From positions 1-29,656 of IMG/VR virus record IMGVR_UViG_3300003323_000029: a stretch of DNA of 29,656 nt; one strand, given 5' to 3'. The DNA comes from a virus. The notes under the pieces are model-generated. The model had not been told where the DNA came from and ran no database searches. It was given only the letters and a program-made list of their open reading frames with translations. The position numbers and the translations under genes are program-made. Positions 24,631 to 25,818 of the stretch are shown piece after piece; position 1 is the stretch's first letter; every line of letters begins with the position of its first letter.

Positions 24631-24657
24631 AAAAAAAAATCCCCGCAGGCGCGGGGA
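24631..24657 (-). terminator. Strong intrinsic terminator of the early/tRNA unit
   Basis: TCCCCGC and GCGGGGA form a perfect 7-bp stem around AGGC. On the minus strand nine T follow at once. It ends the transcript that carries the structured RNA, tRNA and 48-residue gene. Confidence 0.92.
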
Positions 24658-24691
24658 CAAATGGCTTCATGGAGGGAAGAGAAACTTGGAG

Positions 24692-24838
24692 CTACTTCGA
24701 TTTCTTGGCTGGCTTACCTTTTACACCTTCTGCTGCGAGTTTCTTTGCAGTTTCTTGCGGAATGCCAGCGCTCTTGGCGATCTTTGGATTATGAGCAGCC
24801 ATGCGGAAGAGTCTGTTTTGCTTTTCTGTATAGGGCAT
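24692..24838 (-). CDS. 48-residue conserved-type phage protein
   Basis: The frame starts MPYTEKQNRLFRMAAHNPKI and ends in a lysine-rich tail (KGKPAKKSK). The pattern of aromatic start, PKIAKSAGIPQETAKKLAAE helix and basic tail is a familiar small phage protein type of unknown role. The ATG has GAGGTG six bases upstream; the longer open frame to 25039 merely reads through the tRNA gene. It is placed between the tRNA and the terminator. Confidence 0.75.
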   Translation of the reverse strand: MPYTEKQNRLFRMAAHNPKIAKSAGIPQETAKKLAAEGVKGKPAKKSK

Positions 24839-24849
24839 TGAACACCTCT

Positions 24850-24944
24850 TTTGAAATCTGGAGCGGGCGGCGGGACTTGAACCCGCGCCATCAAACTTGG
24901 AAAGATTGCGCTCTGCCGACTGAGCTACACCCGCTTTGAAATCT
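24850..24944. repeat. 10-bp direct repeat flanking the tRNA
   Basis: TTTGAAATCT occurs at 24850-24859 and at 24935-24944, on both sides of the tRNA gene with an 85-base period. This is what a collapsed tandem tRNA array or a recombination insertion of a tRNA unit would leave. Confidence 0.7.
24859..24934 (-). tRNA. tRNA-Gly (anticodon TCC) with encoded CCA
   Basis: The minus strand folds into a full cloverleaf. The acceptor GCGGGTG pairs with CGCCCGC (one G-U), followed by T and an encoded CCA. The D-stem is GCTC/GAGC. The anticodon arm CAATC-TTTCCAA-GTTTG has one T-T mismatch, the variable loop is ATGGC, and the T-arm GCGGG-TTCAAGT-CCCGC is intact. Anticodon TCC reads GGA (and GGG) glycine codons, and the 3' strand is identical to the E. 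coli tRNA-Gly ending CGCCCGCTCCA. It probably supplements host decoding. The gene follows the structured RNA within two bases, so the two should be one transcript with RNase P cleavage between them. Confidence 0.95.
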
Positions 24945-25380
24945 TGCCGGACTCTGCCTCCGGCTTGATGGCTTGCAGTACCATGGCTTTCGTTGTGGCG
25001 GCGGGTGCTAATCTCCCGCTTGTGGCCTCGGCCCACCAATCCTTAGCCGAATTTCACGGTATCAAGATTGCGCGTCAGCCCGCGAATCGCCACACAACTG
25101 CCGCCTACTTAGCGCCCAATCCTGAAAAGCGGGCGTGCTGTCAGGATCATAAGCAGCATGTGTGTGGCGCCTGTCTTTGCAGGCCGTCATCGTGGTTTTC
25201 TTCCCAGGTAGCCACCTTTGCAGGGCTTAGCTACACGAACCTGTCGGCTCTTTACTGCTGCTATTCTGTTCGCCGGGCTTTCACCGGCTCCGCGCTTATC
25301 CCGAAGTTACGCGCTTTGAGGCTTCCGCTTTCGCTGGCCGGGACTCGCCTGCCTCTGCCCGTTTTCCTAACCACAGGAGA
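24936..25380 (-). ncRNA. Large structured noncoding RNA candidate upstream of tRNA-Gly
   Basis: About 445 bases hold no convincing gene, yet the minus-strand RNA has many helices. From its 5' end: GTGGTT/AACCAC (25369-25374 with 25192-25197); GAGGC/GCCTC (25351-25355 with 25318-25322) enclosing a GAAA tetraloop (25325-25337); GCGC/GCGC around GTAACTTCGGGATAA; GCCGG/CCGGC (25284-25288, 25272-25276); GTAGC/GCTAC (25230-25234, 25208-25212); a GCCTG/CAGGC hairpin; a perfect 9-bp long-range CGCCACACA/TGTGTGGCG (25161-25169, 25088-25096); ATCCTGA/TCAGGAT (25141-25147, 25119-25125); GCGGG/CCCGC; AATCTTG/CAAGATT (25063-25069, 24940-24946); and GCCGGA/TCCGGC (24959-24964, 24946-24951). Size, density and tRNA neighbourhood recall the ornate phage RNAs GOLLD and ROOL, but homology is not shown. 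Ends are inferred from the promoter and the tRNA. Confidence 0.65.
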
Positions 25381-25386
25381 GATTTC

Positions 25387-25415
25387 ATTCTATGTCTTAC
25401 GGAGCTAGGCAGCAA
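25387..25415 (-). promoter_or_regulatory. Possible promoter for the structured RNA and tRNA
   Basis: On the minus strand TTGCTG (25410-25415), a 17-base spacer and TAGAAT (25387-25392) give a -35/-10 pair. The -10 matches five of six bases, the -35 only three. The predicted start near 25380 is just after the end of the 137-residue gene. Confidence 0.4.
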
Positions 25416-25818
25416 GCTTTCGTTGCGCTTCCAGAAACAGCGAAGCAATCTTACCAATCTCCATTTGCGGGATCGCTCGCAGATAGTACTGCAATGCGTG
25501 CCGGATGGCCTGGTATTCGGTTGTGGTCAGGTCGAGCAACTCTGTCGGGCGCTGGCAAGCTTTACCCATCGCGAGCCACGCCTTCACCGCACGATCATAC
25601 AGAGGCCTGTTGCCCATCCTCGACCACATCAGTACACCGACCATCAAATGCTCACTGAGCGTGTTTGCGAGGCTATTTGGGCACTTCCCGCGCTTTGCTG
25701 CGTCCAAAGCAGTCAGCACTACCCAATGGATCTTGTCTACCGACTCCTGATCCGGCTTATTCTTGGCAGCGATCAGCATTAGAGGGTTGATGACGGAGCT
25801 TTTCTTCGGCTTAACCAT
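25405..25818 (-). CDS. Helical phage protein of unknown function
   Basis: The 137-residue protein is almost fully helical (SVDKIHWVVLTALDAAKRGK, ANTLSEHLMVGVLMWSRMGN, DRAVKAWLAMGKACQRPTEL, QAIRHALQYYLRAIPQMEIG) with a basic start MVKPKKSS. Proteins of similar shape occur in Bordetella and Burkholderia phages before the late genes, but I know no function. A perfect AAGGAG seven bases before the ATG at 25818 fixes the start; the frame upstream of it is open but overlaps another gene. It is the last coding gene before the structured RNA. Confidence 0.75.
   Translation of the reverse strand: MVKPKKSSVINPLMLIAAKNKPDQESVDKIHWVVLTALDAAKRGKCPNSLANTLSEHLMVGVLMWSRMGNRPLYDRAVKAWLAMGKACQRPTELLDLTTTEYQAIRHALQYYLRAIPQMEIGKIASLFLEAQRKLAA

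Follow-up and report, generated by a model that had tools for sequence, protein, structure and literature searches.

A modular structured RNA upstream of a phage tRNA-Gly gene, with a conserved cloverleaf-like core found in P1, D3 and HK620

What does a phage encode in a stretch without any supported gene that lies next to one of its tRNAs? The question is raised by the window analyzed here, the whole 29,656 bp of IMGVR_UViG_3300003323_000029, whose minus strand carries terminase, portal and major head genes. About 450 bases are flanked there by a gene ending at 25405 and by tRNA-Gly (24859-24934). A 154-aa plus-strand ORF and small minus-strand ORFs extend over this region, none of which matched a family in PHROGs or Pfam; on this basis a protein-coding explanation was rejected, as expected from the original prediction, which had seen no sensible gene here. 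The folding energy of the minus strand was better than that of shuffled sequences (z = -2.34, with 1 out of 100 shuffles as good), and that of the plus strand was not (z only -0.96). Judged by comparison of the loci, the minus strand from 25380 to 24940 encodes a modular structured phage noncoding RNA upstream of tRNA-Gly. The large structured RNA that had been proposed is thus borne out by folding energy and by covariation in relatives, where compensatory changes, suggested as a check, are present in the stems of homologs; its proposed sharing of a transcription unit with the tRNA agrees with the presence of tRNA-Gly (TCC) on the same strand.

Direct comparisons gave little beyond the tRNA. 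No match was obtained when 22.7 kb of the window was compared with cultured phages by megablast, and plasmids gave no match either; distant blastn with the RNA matched tRNA-Gly only, and its conserved sequences were not found printed in the published literature. The suggested membership in GOLLD or ROOL fails, because Rfam finds only tRNA: neither GOLLD or ROOL nor any other large RNA was matched by a covariance model when cmscan was run on the window (E cutoff 1) or on the 601 bp from 24850 to 25450 (E cutoff 10), and this identity was rejected. The features of the locus are compiled in Table 1. The promoter-like boxes of the window fall below the threshold of the scan tool, and two relatives (L090 and L098; loci are designated by L numbers) carry better boxes at this position (TTGCCA-N17-TAAAAT). 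The RNA of L098 ends in a terminator similar to that at 24639-24658 in the window.

Table 1. Features of the RNA locus in the window, listed 5' to 3' along the minus strand.
Feature	Position	Strand	Remarks
Weak promoter-like boxes TTGCTG-N17-TAGAAT	25387..25415	-	read from the sequence; putative
5' hairpin UCCU-GUGGUU-AGGA, close to where the RNA probably begins	25365..25378	-	kept in L090, L098 and L092
Element A, UUCG-capped hairpin GCGC-GUAACUUCGGGAUAA-GCGC	25292..25314	-	29 viral loci; 16-mer also in 23S rRNA H62
Element B1, T-loop-like hairpin GCCGG-UGAAAGC-CCGGC	25272..25288	-	100% of cells paired; double changes in 4 of 5 pairs, 19 loci
Element B2, hairpin GCCUG-CAAAGA-CAGGC, immediately before the 9-bp pair	25169..25184	-	recurs in L090, L002 and L181
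S1, 5' strand of the 9-bp pair (CGCCACACA)	25161..25169	-	can pair with S2; covarying counterpart in about half of the loci
Core cloverleaf-like domain, R1 match	24989..25097	-	49.1 bits, E 7.7e-12; window absent from training
S2, 5' strand of the closing stem, also S1 partner	25088..25096	-	S2-S3 covariation
Hairpin D, CGCG-GGCUGA-CGCG	25071..25084	-	GCUGA of the loop (25075-25079) pairs with loop E
Variable arm, third arm of the junction	25020..25070	-	sequence differs in nearly every relative; cassette sharing only
Hairpin E, GCGGG-AGAUUAGCA-CCCGC	25001..25019	-	UUAGC of the loop (25007-25011) pairs with loop D
S3, 3' strand of the closing stem, CGCCACA	24994..25000	-	
F1 hairpin AUGG-UACUGCAAG-CCAU	24968..24984	-	kept in L098 and L092; compensated in L090 (GUGG/CCAC)
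F2 hairpin GCCGG-AGGCAGAGU-CCGGC	24946..24964	-	kept in L098 and L092; compensated in L090 (CCCUG/CAGGG)
tRNA-Gly (TCC)	24859..24934	-	ARAGORN; Rfam 65.9 bits; downstream of the RNA, same unit
48-codon ORF, phrog_16759, unknown function	24695..24838	-	
Intrinsic terminator, candidate end of the unit	24639..24658	-	scan: 1 found vs 1.2 expected by chance

Scans with other conserved pieces led to the core domain, and 26 loci, the window not among them, were used to train a covariance model (R1). The aligned core reads TTGTGGTG-AAT-GCGCAGGCTGATGCGC, a variable part and GCCGGAGATCAGCACCGGC-CACCACAA, and describes a four-way junction composed of the closing stem, an AAU linker, hairpin D, a variable arm and hairpin E, the latter abutting the closing stem with 0 nt between them. 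The closing, D and E stems contain 52 double-change cells, in 14 of 19 pairs, versus 13.8 in shuffled alignments, and none of 500 shuffles reached this number; the counts lean towards the model because the alignment was fitted to R1. Slid controls gave far fewer double changes than the real core alignment. In the phages D3 and ZC03, both absent from the training set, the closing stem is wholly rewritten (GGAGTG/CACTCC and AATGCAGGTG/CACCTGCATT, respectively). The predicted folds of many members retain the closing stem and hairpins D and E.

A pairing between the loops of hairpins D (GGCUGA) and E (AUCAGC) was predicted from the consensus and then tested in variant loci, which were picked solely by an altered D loop, with the E loop left unspecified. 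Nine loci were returned, all of them R1 members. Full compensation of the consensus pair GCUGA/UCAGC was found in L240, L248 and L246 (GUCGA/UCGAC), L243 (UGCGA/UCGCA) and L245 (GUUGA/UCAAC); pairing is kept via G-U in L247, and one mismatch occurs in L241/L244 and in L242. The window loops (GCUGA/UUAGC) form 5 out of 5 pairs, including one G-U, and the close relative L090 combines GAUGA with UCAUC, again compensated. Across 14 representative loop pairs, 67 of the 70 pairs match, which beats reassigned E loops (p = 5e-5). Comparison of the loci shows the core (25097-24989) to be a conserved four-way junction with a D-E loop contact of 5-6 bp, a contact that offers a clean compensatory-mutation experiment.

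The cloverleaf may not be the sole state of the RNA, because an S1-S2 helix competes with the closing stem. The perfect 9-bp pair already described (25161-25169/25088-25096) was confirmed, and many relatives have a covarying counterpart of it. The 3' strand of the 9-bp pair is also one half of a universal helix, TGTGGCG/CGCCACA (24994-25000), that had been missed. Since S2 (25088-25096) is complementary to both 25161-25169 and 24994-25000, two mutually exclusive helices are possible. A perfect or near-perfect S1 with matching changes was found in about half of the loci, such as ACCACATCA/TGATGTGGT in L088 and CACAACT/AGTTGTG in L202. No obvious S1 strand was seen in D3 and ZC03, and S2-S3 is therefore regarded as the universal pairing. 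Over all loci, the S1-S2 mean shows only a modest excess (7.1 vs 6.2 in shuffles), so the S1-S2 switch is treated as a lead. The competition of S1 and S3 for S2 could correspond to a conformational switch, to ordered folding or to pairing between molecules.

Elements A and B1 form another module. The 16-mer GTAACTTCGGGATAAG (25295-25310) was found in 29 viral loci, in most of which it is bordered by flanks that are complementary but different in sequence, and followed by a second hairpin. The stems of A+B1 in 19 loci have 98.9% of their cells paired and 33 double changes, compared with 8.5 after shuffling; none of 500 shuffles reached 33. The TTCG-type hairpin noticed before, located at 25292-25314, proved to be conserved with strong covariation. 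We take the hairpin of element A to be a UAA/GAN motif capped by UUCG. A scan of bacterial and archaeal genomes with the A+B1 pattern matched almost exclusively 23S rRNA genes, which makes the pattern unusable for counting prophages. The counterparts in 23S rRNA are presumably helices H62-H63, which have the identical 16-mer loop, a similar second hairpin loop and the same order as A-B1, although the phage RNA is not an rRNA and the correspondence comprises two hairpins only. This resemblance (window 25272-25314; 23S rRNA in L117-L178) may reflect either mimicry or convergence on a stable UUCG-capped motif, both of which are possible. Regarding other loci with element A, the L095-type ones were considered as E. 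coli prophages, an idea that was discarded when no E. coli genome or phage record matched. An AT-rich phage contig also contains two copies of GTAACTTCGGGATAA within 52 nt (L106 1357-1408), apparently without relation to the rest of the family.

The layout outside the core is modular. The four nearest relatives (the window, L090, L098 and L092) have in common the promoter region, the 5' hairpin, A+B1 and the 3' hairpins F1/F2, and the middle of the RNA varies among them in length and content, in the manner of a cassette-like exchange. An insertion of about 45 nt between the 5' hairpin and element A (window 25316-25360) is absent in L090, L098 and L092. Among the helices of the original prediction, the 9-bp pair and the UUCG hairpin stand, whereas both pairs proposed to close domains are unsupported: the 6-bp pair 25369-25374/25192-25197 is present in L090 and has no obvious equivalent in L098 or L092, and relatives do not retain the 7-bp pair 25063-25069/24940-24946, a stretch that falls in the variable arm. 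The repeat CCTGCAAAG exists as described, one copy being part of the recurrent hairpin just 5' of the 9-bp pair. T-arm-like hairpins and degenerate tRNA-like pieces (GGTTCRANTCC) were also observed in variable arms without a full tRNA call (L090, L101, L102, L098, L066, L088 and L215). Outside called tRNAs, 5 perfect T-arm-like hairpins were seen versus 0.1 expected, with none in the background, an enrichment based on 5 of 46 loci.

R1 gave 61 matches in 72 phage loci, and also matched P1, HK620, D3, Burkholderia phage CSP3, Pseudomonas phages ZC03 and YA3, and Aeromonas phage 2_D05. A BLAST query with the consensus retrieved 242 cultured-phage records, including P1, P7, D3, HK620, the N4-like IME11 and phages of Klebsiella, Aeromonas and Burkholderia. 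No RNA is annotated for the core domain in those records, and it has no Rfam family; a conserved unannotated domain is present in P1, D3, HK620, N4-like and hundreds of other cultured phages. On the basis of a single match under strict filters, obtained in a class-level R1 search of 274 bacterial genomes, the core domain is read as mainly phage-borne.

Eighteen of 53 loci have a tRNA no more than 1 kb away, in every case on the strand of the RNA, compared with about 2% at control positions; in many loci the tRNA lies 2-100 nt downstream of the RNA. The core domain is located inside a ten-tRNA array in ZC03, between tRNA-Met and tRNA-Gly in D3, and between tRNA-Thr and tRNA-Ile in P1. In several phages the RNA sits between the antiterminator Q and the lysis genes; in HK620 it is flanked by the late promoter/qut and by tQ, an annotated terminator. 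Other copies occupy moron-like units opposed to structural genes, and the RNA unit of HC6 has its own tRNA and terminator. Two annotated ORFs that overlap the conserved RNA may be misannotations: P1 plp (L231 1655-2032), which is on the opposite strand and also overlaps tRNA-Thr, and D3 orf86 (L233 1405-1719).

In enteric members, a tmRNA-like element was observed just upstream of the domain, at L231 near 1127 (P1), L232 1795 (HK620), L210 2819 (IME11), L212 2664, L215 2774, L227 1292 and L228 1549; no RNA annotation was seen for it in these loci, and the window lacks it. All 128 copies found have exactly ten codons, from GCA AAC GAN to stop; ANDDLMMVAA, ANDDVVLMAA and ANEEMYLAVA are among the encoded tags. 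Of the 17 single-base differences between tags, 11 are synonymous. The tag is preceded by the conserved sequence AGAAACNGANCA...TAAATGCAAACGA. The element matches 479 cultured-phage records and scores sub-threshold with the Rfam tmRNA models; the upstream tRNA-like half of a standard tmRNA was not recognized by motif.

As drawn from these alignments, the topology of the core domain resembles that of a tRNA, and our main reading, to which we assign a probability of roughly 40%, is that of a putative trans-acting mimic of the translation apparatus. Transcription would start just upstream of 25380 and end at the terminator 24658-24639, so that the RNA would be made together with the tRNA on one late or moron-type transcript. 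It would then be excised like a tRNA, by tRNA-processing enzymes, and would act in trans by occupying part of the host tRNA/ribosome machinery, the candidate targets being a processing enzyme, a translation factor, the ribosome or a tRNA-attacking defense, with a benefit to the phage late in infection. Action in trans is favored because the RNA opposes neighboring structural genes in several moron-type loci, and because the HC6 unit has its own tRNA and terminator. In favor of a mimic we count the R1 match, the covariation, the D-E contact, the same-strand tRNAs, the T-arm hairpins and the H62-H63 plan; against it, the non-canonical loop E, the lack of a tRNA score and of a CCA, and the two thirds of loci without a tRNA within 1 kb. 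More tentatively, and with some doubt, these RNAs could constitute a modular class, carried by phages of Proteobacteria, that imitates several parts of the translation apparatus. The window would have two of its modules, a tRNA-shaped domain bearing Watson-Crick kissing arms and one like 23S H62-H63, and sister loci of enteric phages a tmRNA-like 10-codon tag (ANDDxxxxAA-stop); such a class would redirect or shield translation during infection.

The same domain could instead be the stable scaffold of a base-pairing sRNA of the STnc100/PasD kind, whose variable arms or flanks would pair with host or phage mRNAs. Indeed, the STnc100 model and R1 score the same stretches of P1 (L231 2263-2382, with 33.4 and 30.2 bits, respectively) and of plasmid L228 (2846-2991), both share GGUG-AAU ... 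E hairpin-CACC, and the variable arms differ freely; according to a preprint, the prophage sRNA PasD is structurally homologous to STnc100 and has distinct target seeds (PMC13192938). We nevertheless regard an sRNA as unlikely, as the STnc100 model does not score the window, the best-conserved parts are tertiary contacts rather than exposed seeds, the window RNA is long and multi-hairpin, without a nearby poly-U terminator of its own, and the association with tRNAs would be left unexplained. That association, together with the many hairpins, the loop-loop pairing and the occurrence in phages and prophages, is shared with ROOL and GOLLD, which form cages (PMC12286853). An RNA-only assembly of this type, with modules pairing between molecules and an oligomer holding or shielding tRNAs or ribosomes, could make use of S1 and S3, each complementary to S2, for pairing between molecules. 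It is improbable, however, given that there is no sequence or model similarity to either RNA, that the core is a stand-alone domain of about 110 nt, far below their size, and that the D-E contact is explicable inside one molecule.

Position offers a different argument, since the RNA might be a cis-acting leader or spacer that aids transcription, antitermination or maturation of downstream tRNAs and genes. The Q-lysis location, that between late promoter/qut and tQ in HK620, and the closely following tRNAs would all fit; on the other hand, most loci have no tRNA within 1 kb, others lie in units opposed to the late genes or, as in HC6, contain their own tRNA and terminator, and no downstream feature is common to all loci. 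This role appears to us quite improbable as well. A chance structure in a decaying intergenic region, compatible with a whole-region energy z of only -2.3 and with an RNA middle that differs between relatives, is hardly credible, and for the core domain and A+B1 it is refuted by the covariation and by the successful loop-loop prediction. Whether as a trans-acting mimic of the translation apparatus, as we favor, or otherwise, the role of large RNAs beside phage tRNA genes is now directly testable, because the domain occurs in P1, D3 and HK620, phages in routine laboratory use.

Known RNAs with which the domain can be compared include tRNA, for its topology, and STnc100, the nearest known family. 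The tRNA plan consists of an acceptor stem, a two-base linker (three bases in the core domain if its D stem is counted as 5 bp), a D arm, a third arm and a T arm stacked on the acceptor, with the D loop touching the T loop; the four-arm order and stacking, as well as the contact of the two outer hairpin loops, have their counterparts in the core domain. In contrast to a tRNA, the domain has no canonical D or T loop (loop E lacks UUCRA) and no free CCA end, and its variable arm measures 35-120 nt or more; ARAGORN and the Rfam tRNA model (RF00005) called only 24859-24934 and left the core domain unscored. T4 rnaC and rnaD, whose function is unknown, are stable RNAs encoded within a phage tRNA cluster, and rnaC has a T-arm-like hairpin, but they were rejected as members, R1 having matched nothing in that cluster up to E 10. 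GOLLD and ROOL are also large structured phage RNAs, often near tRNA genes, from which the window RNA differs in having no Rfam match, other modules and a smaller core.

STnc100 (RF02076, with PasD) is a phage/prophage RNA with a GGUG-AAU-hairpin-arms-5-bp hairpin-CACC plan. Its printed consensus is UGGUG-AAU-hairpin-arms-CCGGGAGGCACCCGG-CACCA, and the window alignment has the same plan, GGUG-AAU-D hairpin-arms-E hairpin abutting CACC. STnc100 differs, however, in its E loop (AGGCA vs AGAUCAGCA in the phage domain), in showing no 5-bp D-E complementarity in its consensus, and in being a sRNA of about 206 nt with its own terminator. STnc100 or STnc100-like copies share their noncoding regions with the cloverleaf domain in L215 4335-4549 (Klebsiella phage Madison), L231 2260-2387 (P1) and L228 2846-2991; the scores are sub-threshold in P1 and L228, and above threshold in L215, elsewhere in that phage. 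STnc100 RNA has been detected in vesicles of E. coli strains (PMC12370729), which supports the expression of such domains and says nothing on the window. Common descent of STnc100 and the R1 domain is likely because the P1 and L228 copies score with both models, and the window RNA is placed beside STnc100, not inside it, because the STnc100 model does not match the window region even at E values as high as 10. The window RNA thus belongs to a family that is different from GOLLD and ROOL, centers on the domain of about 110 nt at 24989-25097, and has the sRNA family STnc100 as its nearest neighbor.
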